Shown here: positions 2,760 to 37,252 of the stretch, in pieces
How positions within the stretch are numbered: the stretch's first letter is position 1
Layout of the letters: each line of letters opens with the position of its first letter
DNA from: a virus
Strand: one strand, 5' to 3'
IMG/VR virus record: IMGVR_UViG_3300029258_002861
Span: 1 to 45,403 of that record
Length of the DNA: 45,403 bases
The notes under the pieces: generated by a model
The model's database searches: none
Told to the model about the DNA's origin: nothing
What the model saw: the letters and a program-made list of their open reading frames with translations, nothing else
Made by a program: the position numbers and the translations under genes

Positions 2760-2773
2760 TTTGGAGATCTGAC

Positions 2774-3193: not shown

Positions 3194-3201
3194 GTCCGCC
3201 G

Positions 3202-3297
3202 GTGAAACGCAAACGGAGAATCAAGGGGCATCGCCAGGCCGGAAGAAAAACCAATCTCTCCCGCAAGGCCCTGGCGAAAAAGCGAAAACGGAGGTGA
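3202..3297 (+). CDS. Possible 31-aa very basic peptide
   Basis: A GTG-started frame in the 108-bp gap between the tube and chaperone genes encodes 31 residues, about half of them Lys or Arg (MKRKRRIKGHRQAGRKTN...). Its stop lies five bases before the TTG start of the chaperone gene, so it could serve for translational coupling. The ribosome site is weak (only AGG). It may also be noise; what speaks for it is the extreme charge and exact fit in the gap. Confidence 0.25.
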   Translation: MKRKRRIKGHRQAGRKTNLSRKALAKKRKRR

Positions 3298-3301
3298 GGC
3301 T

Positions 3302-3901: not shown

Positions 3902-4050
3902 CCGGGCTGCGGTTGATTCCGATGTGCATCTTGTTGGGCGCGATCACGCCCGACAGCCACATCGTACGTTTTGGGTCGATGGCGAATTACCTGCGATTCA
4001 CGCGGACCGAGGCGAACCGAGAGACGTTGAAGCGAGTACACGGAAGGTGA
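3302..4050 (+). CDS. Tail assembly chaperone fusion (gpGT-like, -1 frameshift)
   Basis: A -1 shift at 3817-3826 joins frame 0 (175 residues) to a second open frame, 3826-4050, giving about 249 aa. The shifted part has no start codon of its own and reads as a sensible protein: EPEISGWPAIYKFFAAEYGF followed by a helical segment with LIPMCILLGAIT and a charged end. It stops four bases before the tape measure ATG at 4055. The T-like extension lets the chaperone bind the tape measure protein during tail assembly, by analogy with lambda gpGT. Confidence 0.75.
3817..3826 (+). other. Programmed -1 frameshift slippery site
   Basis: The bases GGGAAAAAAG contain two in-frame heptamers that obey X_XXY_YYZ: G_GGA_AAA at 3817-3823 and A_AAA_AAG at 3820-3826, the latter being the very efficient type known from dnaX. 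Codon phase relative to the TTG at 3302 is exactly right for a -1 shift into the 3826-4050 frame. Confidence 0.8.
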
Positions 4051-4054
4051 AACC

Positions 4055-5491
4055 ATGGCGTTCAAACTTGCCGAAGCGTACGTGCAATTGAGTTCCCGGG
4101 GACTCGCCTCGGTGAACCGGGGGCTCGGTTCGATCAGGGGCAGTCTGGCGGCCCTGATCAGTCCGGCGGGGATGGTTGCAGGGGCCATTGCCGGTATCGG
4201 AGGCGGCCTAACGGTCAAGTCGATGATCACGCTCGCCGCCCGGGCCGAGACGCTGGCAGTCTCTTTCGAGGTCCTGTTGGGCTCGGCGGAAAAGGCCAAG
4301 CAAATGGTCGAGGATATCGGCCAATTCGCGGCCCGAACTCCGTTCGAGCAAGGCGAGCTTGGCGCGGTCACCAAGCAGTTGCTTGCGTTCGGCGTTGTCC
4401 AGGAACGCATCATTCCCACCATGCAGACGCTGGGAGACATTGCGGCGCTGTCCGGTGCCCGCATGAGTGACTTGGCCAGGATCTACGGCAAAGCGAAGGG
4501 AACCGGCGTTGTCATGACCGAGGTCCTCGACCAGTTCCTGGAGCGGGGAATTCCGCTCGGCCGGGAGCTTGCCAAGGTCCTGGGCGTTGCCGAAACCGAG
4601 GTGCGCAAGCTGGCGCCCACGGGCAAGATCACCTTTGGGATTCTCGAGGAAGCACTGGCGAATCTGACGAAAGAAGGCGGCCAGTTCTATGGCGGCATGC
4701 AGAAGCTCTCGAAGACCACGGCGGGCGTCTGGTCGACGTTCACGGGGAACCTGAAGGTGAGCCTTGGCAAGATCGGCGGGGCGATGATCGACGCTTTCGA
4801 TGTCCGGGCCATTGCGGCCCGGCTGGGGCAGTTTGCCGGGACGTTTTGGCAGCGCTTCGGAAGCAAAATCAAGGCCGCGATGGACACCGTGGGGGTCGTA
4901 GTCAAATCGATTGTGATCGGCTTTCGGCTTCTGGCATCAGCGGCCAGGGAAACTTTTGGCGCGCTCATGGGCAGCGATCTGGGCGGATGGCTCGGAGATC
5001 TCGGCAACAGGTTCGCGGAGTTTGTCGGCACGGTGAACAGCTTCATGAGTGTGATGCTCGGCAACTGGACATTGACTTGGGAATTGATGAAGTTGATGGC
5101 CCGCGATGCGATCCGGGAAATGACAGGACGCATGAAAGCCTTCTTCTCCGGCGAAGAGTTCCAGGGTGGCGAATCGGCCAGAACCCATTTCCTCAAGATG
5201 TACTTTCGGGCAGAACTCGAAAAAGCCAAGCGGCCGCCAGATCAGAGCGCAGCAAGCGGAAAGCAACCGGCGAACCAACCGTTTGCAGCGGCAAGGGGCC
5301 CGGCCGGCGGCTTCGGGATCACAACCCTTACCGGCCTGACCGAGCAGATGCAATCGGAGGCGGGCAAGCGCATCGCCGAACGAACGGCCAACGCCACGGA
5401 GCGCACGGCGGCGGCCGTGGAGCAGATGGCGGCAAGGACACCACAACGAGCGGGAACCGCTGCGGGCGTGCCGGTCCCCGCATGGAGCTAG
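4055..5491 (+). CDS. Tape measure protein (short)
   Basis: A 478-aa protein with the classical tape measure layout: helical start, Gly/Ala-rich hydrophobic segment (AGMVAGAIAGIGGGLTV, about residues 39-56), a region SFEVLLGSAEKAKQMVEDI matching the conserved tape-measure domain, further hydrophobic helices at about 283-300 and 325-345, and a low-complexity C-terminus rich in Ala, Gly, Pro and Thr. With the usual rule of about 0.15 nm per residue, the tail should be only about 70 nm long. Position directly after the chaperone genes supports the call. Confidence 0.85.
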   Translation: MAFKLAEAYVQLSSRGLASVNRGLGSIRGSLAALISPAGMVAGAIAGIGGGLTVKSMITLAARAETLAVSFEVLLGSAEKAKQMVEDIGQFAARTPFEQGELGAVTKQLLAFGVVQERIIPTMQTLGDIAALSGARMSDLARIYGKAKGTGVVMTEVLDQFLERGIPLGRELAKVLGVAETEVRKLAPTGKITFGILEEALANLTKEGGQFYGGMQKLSKTTAGVWSTFTGNLKVSLGKIGGAMIDAFDVRAIAARLGQFAGTFWQRFGSKIKAAMDTVGVVVKSIVIGFRLLASAARETFGALMGSDLGGWLGDLGNRFAEFVGTVNSFMSVMLGNWTLTWELMKLMARDAIREMTGRMKAFFSGEEFQGGESARTHFLKMYFRAELEKAKRPPDQSAASGKQPANQPFAAARGPAGGFGITTLTGLTEQMQSEAGKRIAERTANATERTAAAVEQMAARTPQRAGTAAGVPVPAWS

Positions 5492-5494
5492 ACC

Positions 5495-6385
5495 ATGGTA
5501 GCGACAGCGTTCCACGAACTGGCGGGCTCGGGCGCCTCGCATCATTCGATCGATCAAGCCAACTCGGCGACCCGATACTTCCTTTGCAAATGGTCGGATC
5601 GTACCACCTTCATCGAAGAACTGGCCACGTTGCAGCATCCGGAGTGGGGACCGGAGTGCGCCATCAACAGCATAGCTGTCGAGCCGTTTTCCCCGCAGCA
5701 GCCGCCCTCTGTCGTGGTCAACGATCCCACCACCGATGATGTCTCCTACCTTCAGAATGCAGAATTCAACTGCCTGATCACGGCACAGTACAACACGGAT
5801 TTCTCTTTGGCGCCGTGGCCTTGCGACATCGACAAGCCGACGATCCCGGCAGGCACGGAACTGGTGATGCGCACGCGGGCCTCCTCGCAAGTGATTCGGA
5901 TCCCGCCGCGCAAGTTTCTTTCGGCCGACAATCCGAACAAAAATCCGGCGGGGTATGTCCCCGAGCCGGACGGTCAAGAGGGGCGGATCATTCTCCCCAC
6001 CACCGAGTTCCAACTCCAGTGGTATTACGTCGACGAACCGCCGATCGCGACGTGGGAAGAGGATTACGTCGGCCGGGTCAACGAGTCGACCTTTCTGGGC
6101 GCCGAAGCCGAAACCCTGCTCTTTGTCGGTTTTGACATTGAACCTTCGACCCAGTTCCTGATCAGCGATCCGTTCTGTTTCACGGTAACTTGCCATTTCC
6201 GCAAGCGGCGGATCGTGGACGGTTCGGACATCTACGGCTGGAACCATGAGTTCGAACTCCAGGGCTGGACCCGCGTGCAAATGCGGGACGGCAACAATTC
6301 TGCGGTGGACCGGTATCAAAAAGTAGATTTTGCCGACATGTTCGTGGAGGCGTGCTGTTCCTCATCAAGCTCAAGCGGATCCTAA
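5495..6385 (+). CDS. Tail-tip (distal tail-like) protein with Cys-Ser tail
   Basis: It begins three bases after the tape measure stop, the usual place of the distal tail protein. The 296-aa product is beta-rich with several Trp/Tyr/Phe clusters (FQLQWYYVDEPPIATWEEDY, IYGWNHEFELQGWTRV) and ends in CCSSSSSSGS. No enzymatic motif is visible. I do not recognise a named family; the tail-tip role is from gene order. Confidence 0.5.
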   Translation: MVATAFHELAGSGASHHSIDQANSATRYFLCKWSDRTTFIEELATLQHPEWGPECAINSIAVEPFSPQQPPSVVVNDPTTDDVSYLQNAEFNCLITAQYNTDFSLAPWPCDIDKPTIPAGTELVMRTRASSQVIRIPPRKFLSADNPNKNPAGYVPEPDGQEGRIILPTTEFQLQWYYVDEPPIATWEEDYVGRVNESTFLGAEAETLLFVGFDIEPSTQFLISDPFCFTVTCHFRKRRIVDGSDIYGWNHEFELQGWTRVQMRDGNNSAVDRYQKVDFADMFVEACCSSSSSSGS

Positions 6386-6388
6386 GCG

Positions 6389-7210
6389 ATGCCCTTTCGA
6401 TTGCCTCATCCTCGACCCAGATCGCCGTACACCCCGGCAAGCCAACGCGAAATGGTTCGCGAGATTGAAGCCGCGCGAAACTGGGAAGGCGATGGGCCGG
6501 TCTCCTTCGACACCGATGGGACGGCGGTGCGGTTCGATGTCCATCATCCCCCCAAGATCGCTCTGTTCGAGATCACCGACGAGTGGGAGGCATGCGAGAG
6601 TTGTAGCTCCGGGTCAAGCTCAAGCTCCGGGTCAAGCTCAAGCAGCAGTTCGTCCAGTTCATCCGGCGTCTCGGGCCGCGCTTTCCCAGACGGTTGGTGT
6701 CGGGCGTTGGCGACACCGCTCTATTACTACGACGGGTCGCAGCAATGGGATCAGGAACATGAAGGGGTTGAGCGGTACATCTTTCATCCGGCCGGATATC
6801 CGCCCAACGAACGCGATGACCTGATCCTCGAAAAGATCTTCTTGCCGCGTTTCGCGATCGGCGATTGGGTGTGGTGCATCTTCAACCAACAATCGGGTTG
6901 GTGGGAAATCATTCATGGGTTCGAAGATGAGTGGAGGTTCGAGCTTAAGACCGATTTGGACGTCGATGATAGTGGCGACGTTCCGCAAGGCGGCACGGCG
7001 ACGGCCTACCTGCGACAGGCTTCCACGGGCGCCTGTGAATGGTCGCCTTGCGATGCGATCACGTTCACGGTCTGCGATTCGATGGGCATGTTCGAGGGCA
7101 CGGGGCGCGACTCGGGCGGACTCAACGGCCGGGGCGTCGGTTCCCGGGGCGTCTGCAAGTACTTTGCGGATTCCCAGTCTTGGGAAATCATCCAAATGGA
7201 GTGCCCGTAA
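6389..7210 (+). CDS. Tail-tip protein with internal poly-Ser linker
   Basis: A 273-aa protein with two parts joined by a long Ser/Gly linker at about residues 69-92, preceded by CESC. The N-terminal 65 residues are Pro/Arg rich; the C-terminal part is beta-like and rich in Trp (FAIGDWVWCIFNQQSGWWEI), with several Cys. The linker resembles the C-terminal tails of other proteins here, as if two genes with the preceding tail had fused. Its stop overlaps the next start at 7210. Function unknown; probably virion tip. Confidence 0.5.
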   Translation: MPFRLPHPRPRSPYTPASQREMVREIEAARNWEGDGPVSFDTDGTAVRFDVHHPPKIALFEITDEWEACESCSSGSSSSSGSSSSSSSSSSSGVSGRAFPDGWCRALATPLYYYDGSQQWDQEHEGVERYIFHPAGYPPNERDDLILEKIFLPRFAIGDWVWCIFNQQSGWWEIIHGFEDEWRFELKTDLDVDDSGDVPQGGTATAYLRQASTGACEWSPCDAITFTVCDSMGMFEGTGRDSGGLNGRGVGSRGVCKYFADSQSWEIIQMECP

Positions 7211-8244
7211 TGCCAGGCTGGTGGCCATGCCCGGAATGCTGCGCGCGTCCCTGCGTGATTTTCGAGGATGATTTTGAGCGCGGTGACAGTACCGATCTCG
7301 GTGGCAGTTGGGACGAAAAGGTTGGCGATTCTGAGATTGATGACAACGAGCTATTGATTCCAGCCAGCGGGCTGGTGATCGCCACAAAGAAGCATCCCCT
7401 CAACACGCCCACGTGCCAGGTGACGGCCACGCTGACCAACATGCAGGCGGGCCGGAAATACCGGCTGATCTGCAACTACGACTATGACGACGGCAGCTAT
7501 ATCTTCGCGGAGTACGAGACCACCGGAGCCGGCACGGGCACAATGAAAGTCGGCTCGAACAATGGTTCGGACGACTCGATTCTTGATGAGTATCCGGCCG
7601 GGTTCGTGGTCGATGGCGACCTGGAATTCTCTCTCTGCCGGACGCTGAACGGAATCTGGTGCACGCTGCAAGACGAGCCCAACTGGGTGGGCATTGGGGC
7701 CTGCGTGGGTGACACGGGCGGCCGTTACGTCGGCGTCATGAACGCGAGTGCCAGCGGAGACATCACGGTGGATGACTTCGTGTTTATCGAGCACGATCAC
7801 ACCAACCGGCAGTTGCCGCACTGTGCGTGGTGTCCCTGTGAGGGTGGCGGCGATCCGTGGAGCAAGGTCGGTGTGTGCATTCCAAAGGAGTTGTTTCTTT
7901 TGGTCTTCGCCGGCGAGGACTGTGCCTGCATGGATCAAACGTCCTGCATCTTGACGTTTGACGACGCGACACGCGCGGGGCCTTTCGCATGGAAGGGCAC
8001 GATCGTTGTGCCGGGATGCGAGACCTACAACTTCATTTTCTCGTGTACCAGCGACGGGACAAGCGTTAAGCTGTGTACGGACAAGTGCGAGGACTGGGGC
8101 GACATGTGCACTGAGGGATATTTGGGTGGTGAACCGATCAGTGCGTCTTGGGACCCGCTCGAACTCTGGTTTCACGGCGAAGGGTGCTTGCCCGTCAGCG
8201 TGGAAGACCCGAATTGTACGATGTATTTTCGCGTGACCGAATGA
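7210..8244 (+). CDS. Cys-rich tail-tip protein with LamG-like domain
   Basis: Start ATG 7210 overlaps the preceding TAA. The 344-aa product opens with a Cys cluster (MPGWWPCPECCARPCVIFE), followed by a concanavalin/LamG-like sandwich of about 200 residues (FERGDSTDLGGSWDEKVGD, then DITVDDFVFIEHD), then a second Cys-rich half (CAWCPCEGGG, CACMDQTSC). More than twenty Cys residues point to metal binding or a disulfide-stabilised extracellular particle protein. A carbohydrate-binding tip role is plausible but inferred. Confidence 0.5.
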   Translation: MPGWWPCPECCARPCVIFEDDFERGDSTDLGGSWDEKVGDSEIDDNELLIPASGLVIATKKHPLNTPTCQVTATLTNMQAGRKYRLICNYDYDDGSYIFAEYETTGAGTGTMKVGSNNGSDDSILDEYPAGFVVDGDLEFSLCRTLNGIWCTLQDEPNWVGIGACVGDTGGRYVGVMNASASGDITVDDFVFIEHDHTNRQLPHCAWCPCEGGGDPWSKVGVCIPKELFLLVFAGEDCACMDQTSCILTFDDATRAGPFAWKGTIVVPGCETYNFIFSCTSDGTSVKLCTDKCEDWGDMCTEGYLGGEPISASWDPLELWFHGEGCLPVSVEDPNCTMYFRVTE

Positions 8245-15804: not shown

Positions 15805-16444
15805 ACGTCTGCCTCACAAGAACTTGAGGATCCTGGGAGGCGTGCCCTTGGTGTGCCATGCCATCCGCAACGCCTTGCAGGCGCGGCGAATAGACGCCGT
15901 GGTGATCGATTCGGAGGATCACGAGATCCTTGCTGTTGGGGAAGCGGCGGGCGCCATCCCGCTGGCAAGGCCCTTGCACCTGGCGGATAACAACACGACT
16001 GGAGATGATCTGGCGTATTGGCAAGCGCAGCAGCTACCGCAAGCCCACACGATCATCCAGGCCGTTCCAACGTCGCCATTCATTTCGCCGCAGTCGTACG
16101 ATTCCGCGATTGAGCTGCTCCGCAGGAACAAACTAGATGCGGTGGTTGGCACGCGAACCGAGAGTCTCTATACGTGGCGCTATGGCAGGCCGGACTACTT
16201 GGTGGGCGAGCGAACGCCGAACAGCCAGGACCTTCGGCCCACCACCTACGAGACGACGGGGCTCTACGTGATGCGGCGGGCGTTCGTCCTCACGACCCGT
16301 CGCCGGATCAATCCGAACAACTGCGCGGCGTATGCCCTGTCGCGGATTGAGGCAATCGACATCAACACCTTGCGCGATTTGGACTTCGCACAGTTGGTCT
16401 GGCGGGGCCTCCAATCGCAGCCTAACAACGATCGGAAATACTGA
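15731..16444 (+). CDS. neuA: CMP-sialate synthetase-like (NeuA family)
   Basis: Start ATG 15731 with GGAG 15716-15719; 237 aa, overlapping neuB by 74 bases. VAFVHAKGHSERLPHKNLRI near residues 15-34 is the CTP-binding PARGxSKRxxxKN loop in a slightly changed form; further PLVCHAIRNAL, VVIDSEDHEILAV, IIQAVPTSPFI and TTYETTGLYVMRR match the cytidylyltransferase family. It should activate the nonulosonic acid made by NeuB as a CMP-sugar for the GT29-like transferase upstream. Confidence 0.85.
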   Translation: MQTIDLALNPDWRIVAFVHAKGHSERLPHKNLRILGGVPLVCHAIRNALQARRIDAVVIDSEDHEILAVGEAAGAIPLARPLHLADNNTTGDDLAYWQAQQLPQAHTIIQAVPTSPFISPQSYDSAIELLRRNKLDAVVGTRTESLYTWRYGRPDYLVGERTPNSQDLRPTTYETTGLYVMRRAFVLTTRRRINPNNCAAYALSRIEAIDINTLRDLDFAQLVWRGLQSQPNNDRKY

Positions 16445-17022
16445 TGCTAAAGATCCTTGGAGTCGGTCTCCCGCGAACCGGTACCCAGTCGCTTTCGGAC
16501 GCCCTCGAAATTCTGGGGCTCAACTCAATCCATCATGCGCCGGAGCGATTGGATCCGTGGCCGGACGCCGCGACCGAAGCAACGCCCAATTTCCGCGTCT
16601 ACAGTGATGTTGACGCCGTCATCGATGCGCCGGCGTCGTACTTCTACCGCGAACTCGGCGACGCTTACCCCGGTCTGCGCTACATCCTGACCGTCCGCGA
16701 CAAGGATACGTGGTGGCGGAGCGTTCGCACTCACACTTTGCGGATCTATGCAGAAACGCGGTACGCGAGGACCGAATACACCGACCGGCTTCACGCAATG
16801 TTGTTCGGTTCGGGGGTCCCGAACAAATTCCTGTGGCAGCGCAATTTCTGCCTCTGGAATGAGCGGGTTGCGCATGAGCTTGCCGGGCCGCCGTTGCTGG
16901 TCATGGACATCACGGCCGGAGACGGGTGGCGGCTTCTCTGCGATTTCTTGCGGCTGCCGATTCCCGATTGCCCGTTTCCCCACGCCAACGCCACAGTACT
17001 CCCATGCGAGGCAGAATCTTGA
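16444..17022 (+). CDS. Sulfotransferase (PAPS-dependent)
   Basis: 192 aa; start overlaps the upstream TGA. GVGLPRTGTQSLSDAL at residues 6-21 is the 5'-phosphosulfate loop that binds PAPS (PRTGTxSL), as in the Sulfotransfer_4 group; YILTVRDKDTWWRS near the middle is the 3'-phosphate-binding region (RDP/RD..S). It probably puts sulfate on a sugar of the island's glycan. Its last 19 bases overlap the next gene. Confidence 0.8.
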   Translation: MLKILGVGLPRTGTQSLSDALEILGLNSIHHAPERLDPWPDAATEATPNFRVYSDVDAVIDAPASYFYRELGDAYPGLRYILTVRDKDTWWRSVRTHTLRIYAETRYARTEYTDRLHAMLFGSGVPNKFLWQRNFCLWNERVAHELAGPPLLVMDITAGDGWRLLCDFLRLPIPDCPFPHANATVLPCEAES

Positions 17023-17660
17023 TCGGCGCATTGTCGGCGCATGCGTATTCCGACCGTCGAGGAAACTGCCTGGCCACTTGGATCCCGGCAGCCGCGCAAC
17101 TCGGCATGGAGTCGTTCTTTCTTCTCGGCGATCCATCTTTGAGCCATCCCAACCAGATCGGCCGTGAACTCTGGTTGCCGGTCCCGGATGATTACGACCA
17201 CCTGCCGCAAAAGACGCGGGCATTTTGCCAATCGGCGCTGAACCGATCGGGTTGGGACTACCTCTTCAAATGCGACGATGACACGGCGATCGCCGTGAGC
17301 AGGCTCGCCGCGTACGAGGCGCACGGCCGCGACTACATCGGCGCCGAGTGGAGGGCGGGTGTGAACTACGGCAGCGGTGGAGCCGGTTACCTGCTGTCCC
17401 GACGTGCGGCTGAGGTGGTGGCCGAGAAATTGACGTTCCGGATCGGGGCAGAGGATCTGCTCGTGGGAACAGTCTTGCGGGAGGCAGGAATCCGGCTCTC
17501 GATTGAGCGGCGATTCGTTCCCTGGGGAAACATGGATCATCGCCCCCAGCCGGGCAACGATCTGATCACGGCGCATGCCGTGGGGCGGGATGTGTTCGAG
17601 GCGGTCAATCGGGAGATCGACCGGTTGTCGATTGCGAGCGTCGGCTCTTCGTCCGGTTGA
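17004..17660 (+). CDS. Glycosyltransferase, GT31 galactosyltransferase-like
   Basis: Start ATG 17004 lies inside the end of the sulfotransferase gene; 218 aa. ILIGALSAHAYSDRRGNCLA at the start and DYLFKCDDDTAIAV (metal-binding DDD at 91-93) followed by YGSGGAGYLLSRRAAE are the core motifs of beta-1,3-galactosyltransferases (GT31, 'E/K..DDD' and 'GgGyvlS'). It closes the glycan island, converges with a minus-strand gene, and ends in a Ser-rich tail (VGSSSG) like several virion proteins. Confidence 0.75.
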   Translation: MRGRILIGALSAHAYSDRRGNCLATWIPAAAQLGMESFFLLGDPSLSHPNQIGRELWLPVPDDYDHLPQKTRAFCQSALNRSGWDYLFKCDDDTAIAVSRLAAYEAHGRDYIGAEWRAGVNYGSGGAGYLLSRRAAEVVAEKLTFRIGAEDLLVGTVLREAGIRLSIERRFVPWGNMDHRPQPGNDLITAHAVGRDVFEAVNREIDRLSIASVGSSSG

Positions 17661-18124: not shown

Positions 18125-18291
18125 GTTGAAGACACCTCTCATTTTTCAATCCTCTCCGCCTGAGCGGTCAACGTCCGTTGAGAGAGCGTCCTTGGATACA
18201 CCTGTCATTTGACCGCCTTCTCCACCCCTGTCCGTCCGAACTTCTTGAACCAACTCTTGGATACACCTGTCACTTGGCCACCACTTCCTCC
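18125..18291 (-). CRISPR. CRISPR-like mini-array 2 (3 repeats, 2 spacers, degenerate)
   Basis: Read on the minus strand, 36-bp units lie at 18291-18256, 18226-18191 and 18160-18125, separated by 29 and 30 bp of unrelated sequence, so the period is 65-66 bp as in array 1. The first two units share the 3' core TGACAGGTGTATCCAAG exactly; their 5' halves agree with the last unit of array 1 better than with its inner units. The third unit is strongly diverged and ends in CAAC, as does the last unit of array 1. No cas gene is adjacent; it could be served by the effector at 28.2 kb. Confidence 0.65.
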
Positions 18292-18389
18292 AGTCCAGTC
18301 TAGTCACCGGCGTCTCGAGAGTCCAGAAAATAGCGGAAGTGGCTGGGATTTCGAGAGCGGTTGGGCCTCTGCGCTGTTCGATCGCTCGA

Positions 18390-18427
18390 CAAGCTAGGGG
18401 TCACTGGTTCGAGCCCAGTATCGCCCA
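18390..18427 (+). other. tRNA 3'-end fragment, probable attP core
   Basis: The bases contain a perfect T-arm: ACTGG at 18403-18407, loop TTCGAGC, CCAGT at 18415-18419, then an acceptor 3' strand ATCGCCC and A73. The matching 5' acceptor GGGCGAT is absent upstream, so it is a tRNA fragment, not a gene. Phages that integrate into tRNA genes carry just such a 3' piece beside the integrase gene, here 0.8 kb away. The target tRNA cannot be named with confidence. Confidence 0.6.
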
Positions 18428-18556
18428 CTTCCGAGCCGTAACGTGGTGCTACAAAAGCGGATGTGGCGAGTCTGGTGGTGGCTAGTTTGCTGAGCGCCCT
18501 ATGTCGAGGATCGGAACACGCCGGGAGGCCGGAGGTAACCGTAAGGCCCTCGCAAC

Positions 18557-18575
18557 GCCAGTGTTGTTGTGACAC
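18557..18575. repeat. Inverted repeat, left arm, flanking the repressor gene
   Basis: GCCAGTGTTGTTGTGACAC here is the reverse complement, with a single inserted base, of 18929-18948. The left arm ends 12 bases before the -35 box of promoter P1. It may be an operator pair or an integrase/excisionase arm site. Confidence 0.6.
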
Positions 18576-18587
18576 GGCCCCCGGCGC

Positions 18588-18615
18588 TTGACTTGGATCT
18601 GTTTATATGTAGAAT
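18588..18615 (+). promoter_or_regulatory. Promoter P1 of the repressor gene
   Basis: TTGACT at 18588-18593 and TAGAAT at 18610-18615 are spaced by 16 bases, a clear sigma70-type promoter. The repressor ATG is nine bases after the -10 box, so the mRNA would be nearly leaderless. The -10 region with its ATATG prefix is the same as in P2. Confidence 0.65.
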
Positions 18616-18623: not shown

Positions 18624-18899
18624 ATGTCAACAATGCTCTCTGACCACGACGTTACCCAAAACACCGCCGAGAATCTCCGTCGACTTCTGGCGGATCGCGG
18701 ATGGTCGCAGCTCGAGCTCTGCCGACGGACAGGGGAGCAGAGTGGCACGATTTCACGGATTTCCAACGGAAAACAGCTTGCAAGCGGGGCCATTTTGGCC
18801 CGGATCGCCGAAGCCCTCGACGTCTCGGTAGACCGCCTCGTTCAGGCACCGCCGGAAAAAATCCAAGAAAATCTCTTCGTCGCCCAAAAATCTGCTTGA
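18624..18899 (+). CDS. Cro/CI-type helix-turn-helix repressor, 91 aa
   Basis: Start ATG 18624 (AGGAG at 18617-18621) or ATG 18633, which has better spacing. The HTH_3 domain covers about residues 11-68: NLRRLLADRGWSQLELCRRT, then SGTISRISNGKQLASGAI and ARIAEALDVSVDRLV. Such proteins bind operator DNA and keep lysogeny or control the lytic switch. It is preceded by P1 and followed by the near-identical P2, and both lie between inverted repeats, as expected for an autoregulated switch. Confidence 0.85.
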   Translation: MSTMLSDHDVTQNTAENLRRLLADRGWSQLELCRRTGEQSGTISRISNGKQLASGAILARIAEALDVSVDRLVQAPPEKIQENLFVAQKSA

Positions 18900-18923
18900 C
18901 GCAGTTCTACCGATATGTAGAAT
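18896..18923 (+). promoter_or_regulatory. Promoter P2 (downstream copy)
   Basis: TTGACG at 18896-18901 and TAGAAT at 18918-18923, again with 16 bases between; eleven bases around the -10 (ATATGTAGAAT) are identical to P1. It starts in the stop codon of the repressor gene and would drive the leader and the integrase gene. Confidence 0.65.
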
Positions 18924-18924: not shown

Positions 18925-18948
18925 GCCAGTGTCACAACAAGCACTGGC
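18925..18948. repeat. Inverted repeat, right arm, with local hairpin
   Basis: 18929-18948 mirrors 18557-18575. In addition GCCAGTG (18925-18931) and CACTGGC (18942-18948) form a local seven-bp palindrome with a ten-base centre, directly after the -10 box of P2, where a bound protein would block transcription. Confidence 0.6.
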
Positions 18949-19085
18949 ACTCTTGGCTCGCCTCTGAGCCGCCCTGGGTGCCGCCCTGAAAAGAGGGAAG
19001 GACTCCGATGCACGGCAGCCTGGGCCCTGCGCGCAGCCGTTGCGCCCCCGGAAAAACGCCCCCCGGTTTCCCTGCGATCTGCCCA

Positions 19086-19127
19086 GGTTGCGGGGGCCGT
19101 GGGGGCAACCCTGACAGGTGTAGCCAA
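19086..19127 (+). other. Lone CRISPR-repeat-like sequence with hairpin, before the integrase
   Basis: A stem GGTTGC (19086-19091) / GCAACC (19105-19110) is followed at once by TGACAGGTGTAGCCAA (19112-19127), which matches the 3' half of the array repeats (TGACAGGTGTATCCAA) in 15 of 16 bases. It lies in the 316-bp gap between repressor and integrase, same strand as array 1. It could be a solitary repeat, a remnant array, or a target of the same RNA pairing. Otherwise this gap holds only P2 and short GC-rich stems. Confidence 0.45.
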
Positions 19128-19215
19128 AAAGAACGATCTCTGGACCCTTCGTCGGCTCACAAATACGATATAGTCAGTAGACATGCCCCGTTGCTCCGCA
19201 TCATGAGAGAGGATT

Positions 19216-20112
19216 ATGCAGAACCCCACCCTCCTGGGGTACTGCACGGAGGTGTACCTTCCCACCAGAGTCGGACTGAAACCGAGTTCCGCCCAACAGT
19301 TGAGATTAGCCGCCAAGCTCTACAATCTGCCGCTCACACGGTTGCACGAGCGGGAATTGGCGGGAGTGTTGGCGGAATACTGCCGCTCACACTCGCCCGC
19401 CACGACCAACAGCAAGCGCCGGGCGATTCTTACGCTCTGGGATGCGGCGGCTGGCGACGGATTGTGTCGCAAGCCAGACCGTCGCCGTGTCCCCAAGGCG
19501 CGCGAATTTCGCCGGCTGCCCCTCGCGTGGACAGTCTCCGAGGTGGAACGCCTGGTTTCGCATTGCCGAGCCCTGCCGGGAATGGTCGCCCAGATCCCAC
19601 GATCTCGCTGGTGGACCAGCCTGGTACTGGCCGTGTGGGACAGCGGCGAGCGAATTTCCGCCACGCTTTCCACGGCAACGGCCGATTGCAATCTGGCGGA
19701 ACGTTTCATGCTCGTTCGGGCCGAAAATCAGAAATGCGGGATAGACCGCCTCTTCTGGCTGTCCGATGCGACCGTGGCGGCGATCGCCGGACACTACGAC
19801 ACAGGCCGACAGCTTGTCTGGCCGTGGCCTCATTGTCGCCGGTATCTGTTCGTCCAGTTCCGATCGATCATTGGCGGCGCGGGACTGACTGCCGAGAAGT
19901 CGATGGGCCTCTTTCACAAACTGAGGCGGTCGAACATCTCGTACACCGCCCGCAACGGTGGCCTCGACCTGGCCAGGCAACAGGCCGGTCATTCGTCGGC
20001 ATCGACGACTTTGCGACACTACGTCGACCCCCGGATTGCCCACGAGCGATCGGCGGTAGATGTGTTGCCCCCGTTGCGGGCAGACCGGGACGTGCAACTG
20101 CGGCTCTTTTGA
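19216..20112 (+). CDS. int: Tyrosine recombinase / integrase
   Basis: 298 aa; ATG 19216 after AGAGAGG. N-terminal SAM-like core-binding part (about 1-100) and catalytic domain with the expected residues: R146 (WDSGERISA), H234-x-x-R237 (HKLRR), H259 (QQAGH) and Tyr269 (LRHYVDP). It is shorter than many integrases and lacks an obvious arm-binding domain. It would integrate the phage at a tRNA gene through the attP-like fragment at 18390-18427. Upstream: promoter P2 and a 290-bp leader. Confidence 0.9.
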   Translation: MQNPTLLGYCTEVYLPTRVGLKPSSAQQLRLAAKLYNLPLTRLHERELAGVLAEYCRSHSPATTNSKRRAILTLWDAAAGDGLCRKPDRRRVPKAREFRRLPLAWTVSEVERLVSHCRALPGMVAQIPRSRWWTSLVLAVWDSGERISATLSTATADCNLAERFMLVRAENQKCGIDRLFWLSDATVAAIAGHYDTGRQLVWPWPHCRRYLFVQFRSIIGGAGLTAEKSMGLFHKLRRSNISYTARNGGLDLARQQAGHSSASTTLRHYVDPRIAHERSAVDVLPPLRADRDVQLRLF

Positions 20113-20195: not shown

Positions 20196-20334
20196 ACAGC
20201 GGCGGCATGGACGGTGACATGCCTCGGCGGCAAGTGGCGCGTGCCCTCGGGCGGTAAGCCCGCTAAGCGTTCGCCGAGAAAACCCTCAAACGCGCCCTCG
20301 AATAGGGTAGCCGGTTCGACTCCGGCCCGCTGTA
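20196..20334 (+). other. tRNA-like element, unusually long (139 nt)
   Basis: Acceptor halves ACAGCGG (20196-20202) and CCGCTGT (20327-20333) pair fully, followed by A73. A D-arm-like stem GGCATG/CATGCC encloses GACGGTGA, and the T-arm GCCGG-TTCGACT-CCGGC is perfect. Between D- and T-arm there are 86 bases, about 45 too many even for a long-variable-arm tRNA; TCGGCG/CGCCGA could form an anticodon stem with a 42-base loop, and CCCT/AGGG a variable arm. It may be a tRNA with an insertion or a tRNA mimic. No anticodon is assigned. Confidence 0.35.
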
Positions 20335-20447
20335 TTGGTCCATCCAAGGCCAGCCGTCGGACCCTTGGTTCTCATGCGTCGAGAGCCATTGTCATTGACC
20401 CGGCGTTTTCCCGTCGCGTGGAGCGGCGGGCGCCGGTGACCGTTACG

Positions 20448-20872: not shown

Positions 20873-21088
20873 ATGTTGGTACTTAGCAGAAGAGTTGGCG
20901 AAGCGGTCGTGATGGCTGGCGGGATCACGGTCACGGTTACCCGCCTGGAGCGCAATCGCGTGTCGTTGGGGATCGAGGCGCCGAACAAGGTGCAAATCAT
21001 CCGTCGCGAAGTTTTGGAGGGCGCACATGATGGCAACGATAGTAAAGCAGCACAACACAGAACAGCGGTTGCGAGTTCTGGAAGTTGA
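20873..21088 (+). CDS. csrA: CsrA/RsmA-type translational regulator
   Basis: 71 aa; ATG 20873 after AAGGAGG. MLVLSRRVGEAVVM at the start, VTRLERNRVSLGIEAP and VQIIRREVLEG are the full CsrA core (about 1-50), including the N-terminal L4-R6-R7 and the R..V..L region that bind GGA-containing loops in mRNA leaders. The C-terminus is extended by about 20 residues and ends in SSGS. It overlaps the next gene by 62 bases. A phage CsrA can reset host metabolism or regulate phage mRNAs with GGA-rich leaders. Confidence 0.9.
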   Translation: MLVLSRRVGEAVVMAGGITVTVTRLERNRVSLGIEAPNKVQIIRREVLEGAHDGNDSKAAQHRTAVASSGS

Positions 21089-28054: not shown

Positions 28055-28205
28055 AGGAGTTTTGAGGCAGCCCCCGAAAGGGGACGGGCCGATTGGACGG
28101 CCCAAGGCGAGAATAGCTGCGGACCCCGAGAGCCGTGTAGCCCTCGCTTAACACCTGTCGTGCGGCGATCGGGTTCACCACCTGGCCCGGTCGCCGCGAC
28201 TTTTT
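28055..28205 (+). ncRNA. Candidate tracrRNA upstream of the Cas12-like gene
   Basis: The 165-bp gap between rusA and the effector gene folds into ordered stems: CCCC-GAAA-GGGG (28072-28083, a GNRA-type loop), GGGCCG/CGGCCC (28086-28103), a broken stem GCT-CGG/CCG-AGC (about 28116-28141), and a terminator. Just before the terminator, ACACCTGTCGT (28151-28161) is complementary to ACGACAGGTGT in all four intact repeats of array 1 (11 of 11), preceded by CTT, which can pair with AAG at the repeat end. The related repeats of array 2 have T for C in that core and would pair with one wobble. Structured 5' part plus 3' anti-repeat is the layout of type V tracrRNAs. The 5' end is not known. Confidence 0.6.
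28162..28205 (+). terminator. Rho-independent terminator ending the tracrRNA candidate
   Basis: GCGGCGATCGGG (28162-28173) and CCCGGTCGCCGC (28186-28197) form a 12-bp stem with one G-U, followed by GAC and TTTTT at 28201-28205. It begins one base after the anti-repeat and ends 14 bases before the effector ATG, so the RNA upstream is a separate short transcript. Confidence 0.75.
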
Positions 28206-28219: not shown

Positions 28220-29494
28220 ATGGCCGAATTGACTGCCATGCGGATCACATCATTCGAGGTGGCCAATGTTGATGGTGATTGGGGGGAGACCACCAAGCGG
28301 TGGCATCAACTCAGTGATCAGTGCAAGGGCGTGGCAAACTGTTTCTGGGAAACTTGGCTGGTGTGGCACGTTACCGAACAGTCGCGAAAGAAGATGATCC
28401 AATGGCTGGAGAAGCGGAAAGTGAAGGGTATTAAGGCGGCCGGCAAATGTCCGGTGGATGTAATGCCCAAGCCTCTGAACTCCCGGATCAACGCGGTCTG
28501 CAAGGAATGCTATTCCGAGCTTCACAGCCGCGTGCGGACGCTGGTCATCAATACGATCAATCGAGACCTTTTCAAACACAAAGCGGCGACGGGCAATCTG
28601 AAAATGCACACGTCAATTCTGTTGCACAATCAATCGGTCCCCTCGTCAACGCGGGCACACCCGATCCCGTTTGACCGGCAAAACTGCAAGCTTCTCTGGC
28701 CGGAGAAAGGTGAGGAAAACATTCGGCTGCAACTCCGTATCGGTCGTATCGACCGGGGATCGAAACCGGGTATCGGTATTCAGGAGACCCTCGAATTGCG
28801 ATGCAAGGGGCAGCGCGTTCAATCGCAAGTCGCGATTCTCAAGCGGATCATGCGCGGGGACTATGCCTTTCGTGGGTCGAGCTTAGTCTACTCAAAGGCC
28901 AAGCGAAAGTGGTTCGCTCAGATCGCTTTTCGGATGCCGATCGAACCGCGGACGGATCTGGACGCCAAGAAGACGGCTGTTCTTCTCGCCCGGCGGGGCT
29001 GGCCCTGGACGCTCTTGACGCCGGCCGGTCGGAAGATGCCAGGCGGGCGGGGGCGATATGTGGCCCCGGTGCGAAGGTCATTGTTGCTGCAACGCTGGGA
29101 TCGGCAGGGCAACTACAGGTACGCTGGTAGTGCCAGCAAGGGGCACGGCCGGCAGCGGGCTACCCGCGATCAATGGCAGCTGCAGAAGCGATGGCGCGAC
29201 TTCACCAAGCGGGCTATCTGCGGCTGGGTGAACATCGTCGCCGAATGGTGCATTGCCACCGGTTGCGGAAAACTGATCTACATTCAACCGCACGGCTCGC
29301 AGGGCGAAACCCGGTTCTTGCACAACGCGGGCAAGGTCGGGAATCGCCGTGATTCCACGGGCTGGCCCTGGTTCGACGTGGGGACTCGGTTGAAGTACGT
29401 TTGCCAGAAAAACGGGATTGAACTGGTGATTCTGAAGCCAGCAAGTGTCAGAAATGCGGGCAAGAAATTGCCGAAAAAGAAGGCAGGAAAATGA
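28220..29494 (+). CDS. Miniature type V (Cas12/TnpB-like) effector, RuvC apparently inactive
   Basis: Start ATG 28220 (AGGA, 7 bases spacing); 424 aa. The layout is that of small Cas12 proteins: a helical start with WHQLSDQCKGVANCFWETW (28-46), a WED-like segment (TSILLHNQSVPS, HPIPFDRQNCKLLW, 131-160), a strand before RuvC (SLVYSKAKRKWFAQIAF, 221-237), a RuvC region and a bridge helix (GRQRATRDQWQLQKRWRDF). KKTAVLLARRGWPWTLL (250-266) stands where GIDLG is expected, so Asp is replaced by Leu; YIQPHG (354-359) stands where IEDLxG is expected, so Glu is replaced by Gln. NAGKVGNRRDSTGWPWFDV leads to the end. The zinc ribbon CQKCG is encoded at 29446-29460 but in another frame, and the RuvC-III Asp is missing. 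Followed by a repeat array, preceded by a tracrRNA candidate, without cas1/cas2. Likely DNA binding without cleavage; subtype not assigned. Confidence 0.7.
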   Translation: MAELTAMRITSFEVANVDGDWGETTKRWHQLSDQCKGVANCFWETWLVWHVTEQSRKKMIQWLEKRKVKGIKAAGKCPVDVMPKPLNSRINAVCKECYSELHSRVRTLVINTINRDLFKHKAATGNLKMHTSILLHNQSVPSSTRAHPIPFDRQNCKLLWPEKGEENIRLQLRIGRIDRGSKPGIGIQETLELRCKGQRVQSQVAILKRIMRGDYAFRGSSLVYSKAKRKWFAQIAFRMPIEPRTDLDAKKTAVLLARRGWPWTLLTPAGRKMPGGRGRYVAPVRRSLLLQRWDRQGNYRYAGSASKGHGRQRATRDQWQLQKRWRDFTKRAICGWVNIVAEWCIATGCGKLIYIQPHGSQGETRFLHNAGKVGNRRDSTGWPWFDVGTRLKYVCQKNGIELVILKPASVRNAGKKLPKKKAGK

Positions 29495-29508: not shown

Positions 29509-29808
29509 GGTGGAGAGCAGCGTGAAACGACAGGTGTATCCAAGTTGCGCCGTACAACGGCCAGAACTCACCCGGGTGGAGAGCAGCGTGAAACGACAGG
29601 TGTATCCAAGGACAACGCGAGAGAAGGTATGGCGGCGATCGGTGGAGAGCAGCGTGAAACGACAGGTGTATCCAAGGACAACGCGAGAGAAGGTATGGCG
29701 GCGATCGGTGGAGAGCAGCGTGAAACGACAGGTGTATCCAAGAACTTGCTCAGTCGCGCTCGAATCATTTTTGGTGGAGAAGGCGGCCAAGTGACAGGTG
29801 TATGCAAC
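29509..29808 (+). CRISPR. CRISPR array 1: five 36-bp repeats, four 30-bp spacers
   Basis: Repeats at 29509-29544, 29575-29610, 29641-29676 and 29707-29742 are identical; the fifth, 29773-29808, is diverged in its 5' half and ends in GCAAC instead of CCAAG, as terminal repeats do. Every spacer is exactly 30 bp: 29545-29574, 29611-29640, 29677-29706 and 29743-29772; spacers 2 and 3 are the same, so one unit was duplicated. The conserved 3' part is GACAGGTGTATCCAAG. The array starts 14 bases after the effector stop and shares no cas1/cas2. The 66-bp period equals 22 codons, so a frame stays open through it, but unrelated spacers argue against a coding repeat. Confidence 0.85.
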
Positions 29809-29991
29809 TTGTGCCACAGCCCGGTCAAGCCGGGCCGAAAGTACTGTCCCGACTGCGCGGCGGTCGGGTTGATTCCGTTTCACAAGCGACTGAAAGGAAC
29901 CTTAAATGAGTTCGAACAAGAAAAACCAAAAGACTTCCTGGAAGGATTTGCTGCTCAAGGCCAAGCAACTCGACCGCCGAGTGATGGCTAA
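29791..29991 (+). CDS. Possible small zinc-ribbon protein starting in the last repeat
   Basis: A GTG at 29791 inside repeat 5, with GGAGAAGG of the same repeat as ribosome site, opens a 66-residue frame: VCNLCHSPVKPGRKYCPDCA gives two CxxC pairs, then a basic segment and a Pro/Gln-rich end that overlaps the next gene by 86 bases. The same frame is open upstream through the whole array. The zinc ribbon looks real; the start and the end are uncertain. Confidence 0.4.
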   Translation: MTGVCNLCHSPVKPGRKYCPDCAAVGLIPFHKRLKGTLNEFEQEKPKDFLEGFAAQGQATRPPSDG

Positions 29992-30445
29992 CCTCTACGA
30001 ACGGACCTCCTTGCTGGTGCGGATCTTCGATGACGCCGAGTTTCGCGCCGACGTGGGTGCCAGAGACGACCACCAGGCGGCCGATTGGCTGGACGCCGAG
30101 ATGAATGCCGACGTGGGCCTCAACTTCCTGCAACTGCGTGCTATCTTCCTCGAGTTTCCCAAGCAACATGCCTGGCAAGACACCACGCTCCGCGAATTGT
30201 ATGCGCAGCTCCGGCCGGCCGAACCGGCCGACAAGCCGCCCAAGAAGCGGACGGCCGTCAAGCTGGCCGATTTCAAGCGGGCGTGCGAAGATCGCGACAA
30301 CTACCGCGCGCAGGTCGAGTCGCTCAACGAGCAGGTTGCCTCGCTGAAGAAAGAGCGCGACGAACACCGGCGGGAGATCGCGCATCTCCTGGGCCGGATC
30401 GAAGAACTGGAGAAGTCGAGCACAGCCGCCCTTGCGGCGGCGTAG
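29906..30445 (+). CDS. Hypothetical coiled-coil protein, 179 aa
   Basis: ATG 29906 after AAGGAA. Lys-rich start (MSSNKKNQKTSWKDLLLKAK), a helical middle, a basic Pro/Lys linker, then a long coiled coil (DNYRAQVESLNEQVASLKKE followed by RDEHRREIAHLLGRIEELEK). No enzymatic motif. It lies between the CRISPR array and the Dam-type gene. A link to the CRISPR module cannot be shown. Confidence 0.55.
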   Translation: MSSNKKNQKTSWKDLLLKAKQLDRRVMANLYERTSLLVRIFDDAEFRADVGARDDHQAADWLDAEMNADVGLNFLQLRAIFLEFPKQHAWQDTTLRELYAQLRPAEPADKPPKKRTAVKLADFKRACEDRDNYRAQVESLNEQVASLKKERDEHRREIAHLLGRIEELEKSSTAALAAA

Positions 30446-30463
30446 ATTGGAGAGGGAAGATGA

Positions 30464-31387
30464 ATGACTGAGGTAATTCAGATTACGAAGCCGCCCTTTC
30501 CTTGGTTCGGCGGGAAGTCGCGAGTGGCCGATATCGTGTCGCAGCGGTTCGGCGACATGCCGAATTACGTTGAACCGTTTTTCGGCAGCGGGGCCGTACT
30601 GTTTCGTCGGCCCCACCCGCCCGGAACAGAGACGGTCAACGACCTGGACTGTTACGTAGCGAATTTCTGGCGGGCGACGAAACATGATCCCGATGCGGTT
30701 GCCGACGCGGCGGACTGGCCGGTGAACGAGGCGGATCTTAATGCCCGTCACAAGTGGTTGCTGAACCAAGCCGAATTCCGCGAGCGGATGCGAACCGATC
30801 CGGATTACTACGACGCGAAAATTGCGGGCTGGTGGGTGTGGGGGCAGTGTCAATGGATTGCGGGGGGGTGGTGCGATTCGCGATGCTACGATGGAGAATC
30901 ACGGCCTTCGCAGCAACTGCCTCACTTGAGCAATGTCGGCCAAGGCATTCATCGGCCCAGTCAGATCATCCATAAATACATCGCGAGCATATCCGCACGA
31001 TTACGGCGCGTCCGCGTCTGTTGCGGGGACTGGAGCCGCGTGTGTGGACCAACGCCAACCGTGCATCGAGGGCTGACGGGTATGTTTCTGGACCCGCCGT
31101 ACGGCGAAAGTCGGGCCGATGGCTGTTACGCCACTGATAGCACCGAGGTACACAAGGCGGTTCATGACTGGGCTCTGGAGCATGGTGCCGATAAGATGCT
31201 GCGAATTGCTCTCTGCGGCTACGAAGGGGAATTCGATCCGCCATCCGGATGGGAAACGGTCGAGTGGAAGGCGCATGGCGGCTACGGGAACCGAGGTAAC
31301 GGTCAGGCGCGGGTCAACGCGGGCAGGGAACGGATTTGGTTTTCGCCTTTGTGTCTGCGTCCAACAAGCCAAGCGATGTTGTTTTGA
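30464..31387 (+). CDS. Dam-like adenine-N6 DNA methyltransferase (D12 class)
   Basis: 307 aa. PPFPWFGGKSRVADIV (residues 10-25) is the SAM-binding motif I of the D12 family, YVEPFFGSGAVLF follows, and GMFLDPPYGES (DPPY about 209-212) is the catalytic motif IV. The order F.GGK before DPPY is that of Dam/DpnM enzymes. Orphan enzyme; with the cytosine methyltransferase at 24.6 kb it probably protects phage DNA against host restriction or marks it for regulation. Confidence 0.85.
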   Translation: MTEVIQITKPPFPWFGGKSRVADIVSQRFGDMPNYVEPFFGSGAVLFRRPHPPGTETVNDLDCYVANFWRATKHDPDAVADAADWPVNEADLNARHKWLLNQAEFRERMRTDPDYYDAKIAGWWVWGQCQWIAGGWCDSRCYDGESRPSQQLPHLSNVGQGIHRPSQIIHKYIASISARLRRVRVCCGDWSRVCGPTPTVHRGLTGMFLDPPYGESRADGCYATDSTEVHKAVHDWALEHGADKMLRIALCGYEGEFDPPSGWETVEWKAHGGYGNRGNGQARVNAGRERIWFSPLCLRPTSQAMLF

Positions 31388-31582
31388 CTGTCCATTTGAC
31401 TGTCCACAATCCAGACCTTGGATTCGGGCCGGCCCGCTATTTTGTGCCGATCTGTATTCGGCATAAACACGGTTACTATGGCGGCCCTGTAGGGTATCAG
31501 GAAATGAGCGAGGAGTTGGCGAAACAGCAAGTGGTAATTGTACTAGACTCGACGGACAACTATTCGACAATATCGAATAGTT
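31383..31582 (+). promoter_or_regulatory. Regulatory gap with tandem TTTGACTGTCCA and a perfect inverted repeat
   Basis: The 219-bp gap after the Dam gene starts with two tandem copies of TTTGACTGTCCA (31383-31406), each containing a -35-like TTGACT, and ends with AACTATTCGA (31558-31567) and TCGAATAGTT (31573-31582), a perfect ten-bp inverted repeat with five bases between. It lies 12 bases before the ribosome site of the next gene, a typical operator position. No convincing gene is seen in the gap. Confidence 0.5.
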
Positions 31583-31606
31583 CAAACCCTGAAGGAGATG
31601 AGTATC

Positions 31607-31894
31607 ATGGCGAAGAACAGACCGGCAGTCGAGCGCGACAATCAGGAAACGTTGCCTGGAGTGCTGCCCAAGCCCAGCAAAGCCTTGCTGGCCAAGGTCG
31701 AGGACTTGGAGGCGACCCGCTACCGGCGGATGGAACTCCAAGACGAGGAAAAGCAACTGGAGGAGGCCGTCGTCACAATGATGGAAAAGCAGGGCGTTCA
31801 GATGTTGTCGCTCTCCTCGGGCCGCAACGCCAAGTTGACGCGGATCGAGGCCAAGGAGAAGGTGAAGTTCATCACGCCGAAGGCAGACACCTGA
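31607..31894 (+). CDS. Hypothetical protein, 95 aa
   Basis: ATG 31607 has the right distance to GGAG; ATG 31598 is too close. Helical, charged (SKALLAKVEDLEATRYRRME, QDEEKQLEEAVVTMMEKQGV) with a strand-like end (KEKVKFITPKADT). Small phage proteins of this type often accompany packaging or recombination genes. Function unknown. Confidence 0.55.
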   Translation: MAKNRPAVERDNQETLPGVLPKPSKALLAKVEDLEATRYRRMELQDEEKQLEEAVVTMMEKQGVQMLSLSSGRNAKLTRIEAKEKVKFITPKADT

Positions 31895-31909
31895 GGTGGG
31901 ATCCCGGGA

Positions 31910-31999
31910 GTGTTGTTCTTGGTTGGCTTGAAGCTCGGCGGCGTCATCACCTGGTCGTGGTGGCGGGTGCAGTGTACTTGCTACTCACGGCCAAGGTAG
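31910..31999 (+). pseudogene. Small membrane protein, probably frameshifted
   Basis: A GTG-started 29-residue frame reads MLFLVGLKLGGVITWSWWRV and then loses hydrophobicity, while another frame from about 31955 continues with VVAGAVYLLLTAKVGELDPR. The two halves together would make one hydrophobic hairpin of the kind common among small phage membrane proteins. A frameshift or assembly indel around 31950-31965 is likely. Confidence 0.35.
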
Positions 32000-32070
32000 G
32001 TGAACTCGACCCGAGGAAAAAACCCGGGAAAATCCAAAAACAGTCGAAAATACATATTGAGGGATCGCCG

Positions 32071-32249
32071 ATGCCCTGGGGATCGTCATCCAAACCGGGG
32101 CCCAGTAGGGGGGGCAGAATTCTGACCAGACGCTGGTCGCGTCGATCTTTAAGATCGGCCTGGTGATCGCCGGGGCCGGGGCCGCCCTGTATGAGATCGT
32201 GCATATTTTCGACGCGATCCCGACGTCGTGGCCTACATCGTCGCCGTGA
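32071..32249 (+). pseudogene. Small membrane protein broken at a G7 run
   Basis: ATG 32071 with GAGGG at 32059-32063 starts a frame MPWGSSSKPGPSRGG up to a run of seven G at 32108-32114; the hydrophobic continuation, DQTLVASIFKIGLVIAGAG followed by AALYEIVHIF, is in the -1 frame and ends at TGA 32247-32249. One more G, or -1 slippage on G_GGG_GGC, would restore a 60-residue membrane protein. The gap 31895-32348 holds only this and the previous damaged frame. Confidence 0.45.
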
Positions 32250-32348
32250 TCTGCCAACAAATGTAGGGCGGGCTGGGAATTCTCGTTGACCAATCCCGCC
32301 GTAGAGTGGTATGCTGAATTGGGGGGATTGGGGGCGAGGCTTGGATTC

Positions 32349-32822
32349 ATGAACGATGGTGTCTTGCAGTCCGACATTTTCGAGAACCCGCGAAAGATCC
32401 TGTCGGACGTGCAATTGATCGCCTCGCAGCGCTCGCGCATCTCGGATGAGGTGATGGAAGCGTTGGTCCGGCGGGCGGCGGCAGTCGTCGAAGAGGTCGA
32501 GCCGGGCAGCCGCGAGTTCGACCGCATCGCCCGTTTCCTCCAACGGGAGCGGAAACTTGAAGACGCGGAGAAACGCACGCGATTAGAGATCGCGAAGATT
32601 TTGCTTGGCGTGATGAGCCCCCACGTGGCGACGGCCGTGCAAGTGAACATCGACACCAAGCAGGCTCACGACTCAGAGAATCATGATGATTTCGTTGCCC
32701 GAAAGCTCGCCGAGCTTGACGCCATCTTGGGAGTCGCCGGAGAAGGCGGCGGCCCGGATGGGGCGGGAGATTCTCTGCAATCCGGGAATGGTCAAGCGAC
32801 AGGCCCGGCGGAATCTGCTTGA
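32349..32822 (+). CDS. Probable small terminase subunit
   Basis: 157 aa from ATG 32349; TTG 32286 could add 21 residues. All-helical and charged (FDRIARFLQRERKLEDAEKR) with LIASQRSRISDEVMEALVRR near the start, which could be the DNA-binding helices; Gly-rich end. It overlaps the large terminase gene. Called terminase small subunit only because of its place, size and helical make-up. Confidence 0.5.
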   Translation: MNDGVLQSDIFENPRKILSDVQLIASQRSRISDEVMEALVRRAAAVVEEVEPGSREFDRIARFLQRERKLEDAEKRTRLEIAKILLGVMSPHVATAVQVNIDTKQAHDSENHDDFVARKLAELDAILGVAGEGGGPDGAGDSLQSGNGQATGPAESA

Positions 32823-36904: not shown

Positions 36905-36930
36905 GTGGGCAAAAAAAGGAGTTGACAAAG

Positions 36931-37146: not shown

Positions 37147-37180
37147 CCATTTGACGGCAACCGGGTACTGAGAATCATCC

Positions 37181-37229
37181 AGGCCCGCCCCAGAATCGCG
37201 ACTTTTTCTCGCAACTCTGGGGCGGGCCT
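37181..37229 (+). terminator. Strong hairpin terminator inside the head operon
   Basis: AGGCCCGCCCCAGA (37181-37194) and TCTGGGGCGGGCCT (37216-37229) are perfect 14-bp complements, with a nested GCGA/TCGC in the loop, followed by TTTCTC. It separates the terminase-portal part from the capsid genes and may be a regulated or leaky stop, or an RNA-processing site. Confidence 0.75.
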
Positions 37230-37252
37230 TTTCTCATTTCTTGGAGTAGCGC

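Follow-up and report, generated by a model that had tools for sequence, protein, structure and literature searches.

Why should a phage carry a single CRISPR repeat-like element in the leader of its integrase gene? Messenger RNAs with repeat-like stretches can act as crRNAs after pairing with tracrRNA, as shown for Cas9, and the physiological role of these mRNA-derived crRNAs is described as unclear by their discoverers (PMC8224270). Solitary repeat units of phages are in turn reported to be able to act as anti-CRISPR RNAs (PMC10651486). The element considered here, TGACAGGTGTAGCCAA (positions 19112-19127, + strand), lies in a 45,403-base phage record, all of which was analysed and is referred to below as the window. 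An earlier note on this DNA had suggested that the element may be a solitary repeat unit, or else a place where crRNA/tracrRNA machinery bears on integrase control.

Here, we compare the element with the other repeats of the phage, describe the leader in which it lies and the effector and candidate tracrRNA with which it might work, and search for targets of its putative guide and for relatives of the phage. The features are listed in Table 1.

Table 1. Features of the window that bear on the solitary repeat core
Feature	Position	Strand	Remarks
Array B repeat 3 (B3)	18125-18160	-	degenerate
Array B repeat 2 (B2)	18191-18226	-	
Array B repeat 1 (B1)	18256-18291	-	
tRNA-3'-end-like stretch, likely attP core	18389-18430	+	90% over 41 bases to a phage tRNA-Val gene
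Promoter-like site before HTH gene	18588-18615	+	TTGACT-16-TAGAAT; same form as the 18896 site
HTH regulator, likely lysogeny repressor	18624-18899	+	
Promoter-like site, integrase leader	18896-18923	+	TTGACG-16-TAGAAT
Quasi-palindrome	18927-18950	+	at presumed transcript start; putatively operator-like
Stable hairpin	19058-19106	+	21 pairs; ends five bases before the core
Solitary repeat core	19112-19128	+	TGACAGGTGTAGCCAA plus A; tracrRNA-pairing 3' half of repeat
Putative guide after the core	19129-19148	+	length assumed
Tyrosine integrase (int)	19216-20112	+	298 aa, Xer-like
Candidate tracrRNA	28060-28205	+	directly upstream of effector
Short anti-repeat loop	28093-28097	+	UUGGA in hairpin loop; can pair with repeat UCCAA
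Long anti-repeat	28151-28160	+	ACACCUGUCG; complementary to repeat CGACAGGUGU
Strong terminator of candidate tracrRNA	28161-28198	+	
Cas12f-like effector	28220-29494	+	424 aa; without RuvC-I Asp, C-terminus truncated
Array A	29509-29808	+	five 36-base repeats, 30-base spacers; after Cas12f-like gene

Repeat cores in the window

The solitary copy is identical at 15 of 16 bases to the core of the array-B repeats B1 and B2 (TGACAGGTGTATCCAA), as the earlier note had claimed, and at 14 of 16 both to the four identical repeats of array A and to A5; an exact 11-base stretch, TGACAGGTGTA, is common to the solitary copy, A5, B1 and B2. In a first-order Markov model of both strands of the 45.4 kb, the expected number of sites that differ from TGACAGGTGTATCCAA by no more than one base is 0.0003, and the repeat-like sequence reported in the earlier note is confirmed. 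A looser 15-letter search allowing up to three mismatches returned nine sites in the whole window (0.47 expected), the other eight being array copies, including those of array B. That the resemblance is accidental might be argued from its being a single copy, one among several motifs that a reader could pick, but with so low an expectation, and a position in a lysogeny module that also holds array B, this is hardly credible.

The repeat core is thus present in nine copies – five in array A (+), three in array B (-) and the solitary one – so that the element is alone locally, yet part of a wider set. Its description as solitary holds in that local sense and fails for the window overall, because the nearest other repeat is about 820 bases away in array B, which lies on the other strand, was absent from the earlier note, and contributes three of the nine copies to the flank of the same lysogeny module. 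The match covers the 3' 16-17 of the 36 repeat bases. Across the 5' half the solitary copy has no similarity above chance, its score being equalled by 7.6% of sampled genome 22-mers, 31% of G-matched 22-mers and 17% of shuffles.

The first four repeats of array A (A1-A4) are identical and A5 differs. Two successive 66-base repeat-plus-spacer units (29575-29706) are also identical, spacers 2 and 3 being the same, and a small zinc-ribbon-like ORF (29791-29991, +; weak Pfam zinc-ribbon matches) may begin within the last repeat. The repeats of array B are 65 and 66 bases apart and span 18125-18291, with four changes within the last 15 bases of B3. The array lies about 100 bases from the attP-like tRNA-3'-end stretch, and integration there would alter what stands upstream of it; a weak promoter-like site (8/12) is found near array B at 18325-18297.

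This proximity to attP might suggest that the repeats are arm-binding sites of the integrase, and the ATG or GTG that precedes ACAGGTGTA in A5, B1 and B2 might suggest that they are starts of small ORFs (MTGVSK...). We rejected both readings and regard an explanation at the protein or DNA level as very unlikely. The start codon would be ACG in A1-A4 and CTG in the solitary copy; within the 15-base frame A5, B3 and the solitary copy show eight differences, all non-synonymous except the change at the last base of the solitary copy; and array A and the leader are without coding signal. As for arm sites, array A is 10 kb away, and a Xer-like integrase of 298 aa is not long enough to include an arm-binding domain of the lambda type.

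The integrase leader and lysogeny module

Each of the two promoter-like sites adjoins one copy of a 23-24-base quasi-palindrome, the second copy being located at 18557-18579 and that at 18927-18950 being inverted relative to it; the pair reads best as a repressor operator. A c4-type (c4-2) antisense RNA at 18518-18589 (+) was also considered, with a score of 33.9 bits, below the gathering score of 41, and was absent from a whole-window scan. This segment overlaps the operator-like palindrome and contains two stretches complementary to the integrase leader, the hairpin that precedes the core being involved in one case; as the complementarity is equally explained by the inverted operator, the c4-type reading was dropped.

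Codon periodicity is absent from 19008-19214, and this part of the leader is non-coding. The whole leader folds slightly better than its shuffles (z -1.4), and the hairpin has a predicted energy of -38.4 kcal/mol (z -3.4, with none of 200 shuffles as stable). A hairpin does precede the core, as the earlier note described, but at 21 pairs it is not the small one it was taken for. The core does not stand out as exposed in the fold predicted for the leader, being unpaired at 0.36 relative to 0.40 for the leader.

Several other features of this region were observed. A second tRNA-3'-end-like stretch, GGTTCGACTCCGGCC, was seen by eye after int (20291-20335, +), and ARAGORN calls a tRNA-Arg within the integrase gene (19916-19987, -) that is probably false. 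A CsrA-like reading frame (MLVLSRRVGEAVV...; 20874-21050, +), recognised by eye, also follows int; association with csrA is described for some TldR loci (PMC13418256). On the other side of the module, ORFs at 16444-17660 (+) resemble by eye a sulfotransferase and a glycosyltransferase, an unusual phage cargo.

The effector and candidate tracrRNA

The effector matches the PADLOC profiles Cas12u3 (4e-14) and Cas12f (2e-11), and also Cas12f PDB chains; the NCBIfam TnpB model matches at 3e-6, below cut-off, and Cas12f models score better. In the alignment the RuvC-I GID motif falls in a gap of the effector, the RuvC-II Glu is apparently Gln (by eye), and the C-terminal zinc finger and part of RuvC-III are missing, such that the intact RuvC Asp/Glu/Asp of Cas12f is not found. 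Judged by sequence, the effector is apparently nuclease-dead. Two solved Cas12f chains in the alignment show GIA at the GID site, presumably as deliberate Asp mutants, and one solved chain matched bears the name nuclease-deactivated Cas12f (name only). At about 29440, just before array A, a different frame can be read as the first CxxC of a zinc finger, and the truncated effector could be decaying; its ORF keeps coding codon usage. A single-sequence AlphaFold model of the effector (pLDDT 35) was not used.

Type V-F systems have a long and a short (5-7 bp) repeat/anti-repeat duplex (PMC11246509), and the window presents the corresponding features: a Cas12f-related effector, a candidate tracrRNA with both long and short anti-repeats, and an array near the effector. 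Of the nine occurrences of the motif ACACCTGTCR in the window, eight are accounted for by the solitary copy and the repeats, read on the opposite strand; the remaining one is the anti-repeat. No further complement of the repeat core exists in the window. A core complement was also sought in the integrase leader, as part of a second tracrRNA, and none was found there. By energy alone the core/anti-repeat duplex ranks no higher than the best 1% of genome windows; in a duplex-energy scan for anti-repeats this site ranks third, Markov genomes reach lower energies, and the best sites are no better than those in random sequence. The case for the candidate tracrRNA is one of unbroken match and location, not of energy.

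Against this anti-repeat none of the ten long-duplex positions is lost in the solitary copy, one being a G:U (a terminal G:U that is also present in B1, B2 and A5), and four of the five pairs of the short duplex are retained; the copy is thus predicted to pair as a noncanonical crRNA requires. The core similarity above chance, the retained pairing with the candidate tracrRNA and the non-coding location together uphold the proposal that the element is a stray repeat unit of the phage's own Cas12f-type system.

Two explanations that need no guide bear on the same pairing. The tracrRNA, alone or with the effector, might pair with the core in the integrase mRNA and alter its stability or translation, which would account for a location within the leader, for predicted pairing over ten positions, and for a guide that lacks a target (see below). 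However, about 88 bases separate the end of the core from the int start codon, so that the core is well away from the ribosome-binding site, and no published example was found in the literature searched; we consider such a cis-acting site improbable. Alternatively, the solitary repeat RNA might act as a decoy in the manner of Racrs, binding Cas proteins of the host's CRISPR system and putting them out of action: solitary units are known in phages, where they frequently follow a promoter closely, and inhibition of Cas complexes is described for some of them (PMC10651486). The published units, however, are described as standing apart from cas genes and as matching the whole repeat of the host system (PMC10651486). 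Here the element matches repeats, and fits a candidate tracrRNA, that are encoded by the phage itself, and the phage also encodes an effector, so the unit is not apart from cas genes; there is little to recommend a decoy.

Targets and relatives

The putative guide has no target elsewhere in the phage (longest match 9 nt), and no target in the phage itself was found for the array spacers. The suggestion of crRNA/tracrRNA machinery acting on integrase control accordingly found no support, as guide matches to the phage, the integrase region included, do not exceed chance length. Among viral contigs the guide has one exact 18-nt match, in an unrelated virion-type gene, where about one is expected by chance (our estimate, scaled from the 29 loci with the core 16-mer). 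Spacer and guide targets were sought in 52 of 66 collected loci, the other 14 being the phage itself or its sister, and none rose above random controls except in L036, a locus fetched by the guide 18-mer itself. The 18-mer of spacer S2 was found in viral contigs only in the sister phage.

The record has identical 144-base ends (1-144 and 45260-45403), and the sister record G001 (23,136 bases) crosses the end joint with one copy of them, so that the genome is circular or permuted. G001 covers 29620-45403 and 1-7496 of the window, and contains array A from the second spacer on and neither effector nor integrase. Searches of viral contigs gave no match to the effector and no two-row effector alignment, 19 loci for the terminase, three for the array pattern (the sister record being the sole array among them), and one for the integrase (40% identity over 198 residues). 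This last locus, L031, belongs to a phage with a tRNA-like site before int, in which no effector was found by tblastn and no core motif was seen in the leader by eye. The core 16-mer is a single copy at all 29 viral loci that have it, 28 of them within open frames of at least 79 aa and one (L052) in a 44-aa frame, and none of the 29 retrieved stretches contains a relative of the integrase or effector.

Genome contigs yielded one terminase match and no effector. In annotated collections the effector has a single weak match among phages, to a transposase, and no match among plasmids, and the integrase has none in either. The terminase matches 1957 annotated phage records, all below 60% identity, array A DNA has one short match, and lysogeny-region DNA matches 72 records, with the 12 matches listed all at the tRNA-like stretch. 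A search for the effector in 14 of the 20 terminase or integrase loci found it in none of the 14 records (without a positive control). Apart from sister record G001, no second phage with the effector or array was found in these collections.

Because neither a target nor a relative covering the region was found, a relic has to be taken seriously as a rival: recombination or an old array could have deposited the 3' half of a repeat in the integrase leader, where it would now be functionless. Such an origin is consistent with the visible degeneration of another copy (array-B repeat 3), with a 5' half that is unrecognisable, with a guide that has no target in the phage, or beyond chance in viral contigs, and with the truncation of the effector. 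The loss is nevertheless very uneven, 15 of 16 core bases being kept while the 5' half is at chance level, and all ten long-duplex positions still pair; moreover, array A holds four identical repeats, so the repeat is not decaying everywhere. We judge a relic to be quite possible, if on the whole doubtful.

Discussion

The explanation that we tentatively prefer, at somewhat less than an even chance, is that the integrase transcript contains, in the solitary element, a crRNA of one unit that serves the Cas12f-type system of the phage itself, a system that is apparently nuclease-dead. Retention of the pairing handle with loss of the 5' half is the pattern that we would expect if only the mature handle were selected; since the loss upstream of the handle fits selection on the mature crRNA handle alone, the crRNA reading is the best supported.

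Transcription from the promoter-like site at 18896, which is likely to be shut by the HTH repressor in a lysogen, would give a leader of about 290 nt together with int. The hairpin would keep the core free, and the phage tracrRNA would pair with the core through its long and short anti-repeats. The effector would take up this duplex, use as guide the bases that follow 19128, and block a DNA target without cutting it at the time that int is made. We infer each of these steps, from transcription and repressor control to RNA processing, guide use and DNA binding.

Because the solitary repeat is located in the int control region, expression of the integrase message could yield a guide RNA as well. 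In its fullest form – an integrase mRNA of a temperate phage that is a natural guide RNA, its leader and the tracrRNA arming a dead Cas12f, at every expression of int, to silence a gene of the host or a rival, and thereby tying RNA-guided repression to the lysogeny decision – the proposal is a speculative one, and we think it unlikely. The crRNA reading would, if true, link lysogeny control to RNA-guided repression, and the combination of a repeat core in an integrase leader, a tracrRNA and an apparently dead Cas12f would provide a concrete place to test the physiological role of mRNA-derived crRNAs. We found no report of a phage-borne nuclease-dead Cas12f with a stray repeat in the open-access literature, subscription papers and preprints being largely outside the scope of the search.

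Comparison with known systems

The closest system is Type V-F CRISPR-Cas12f (AsCas12f1 and relatives), with which the phage shares effector similarity, a repeat/spacer array and a tracrRNA candidate with both anti-repeats. It differs in being phage-borne, in having lost the RuvC-I Asp and apparently exchanged the RuvC-II Glu for Gln, in missing the C-terminal zinc finger/RuvC-III part, and in having two arrays and a stray unit. The noncanonical crRNAs of Campylobacter jejuni Cas9, as reported in PMC8224270, likewise involve a repeat-like mRNA stretch able to pair with tracrRNA, whereas here the system is of Cas12f type and the repeat core is copied almost exactly, in an integrase leader that belongs to the phage carrying the repeats.

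Solitary repeat units and Racrs, as presented in PMC10651486, resemble the present case in that one repeat-like unit follows a promoter-like site in phage DNA; in this phage only half of the repeat is kept, and an effector and two arrays are present in the same genome. Such units are defined by a match to a CRISPR repeat with no partial repeat within 100 bp; here the nearest repeat is about 820 bases away, but the match is confined to the 3' 16-17 of the 36 bases. TldR proteins – nuclease-dead TnpB repressors of temperate phages – are likewise phage-borne members of an RNA-guided superfamily that have lost the nuclease, but by the account in PMC13418256 they derive from TnpB and have their own guide RNA, whereas the present effector, which Cas12f models score better, is Cas12f-like and comes with a candidate tracrRNA and arrays. 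Cas12m (V-M), finally, is described as binding DNA without cutting it (PMC11013384), the mode of action proposed here for a different Cas12 subtype.
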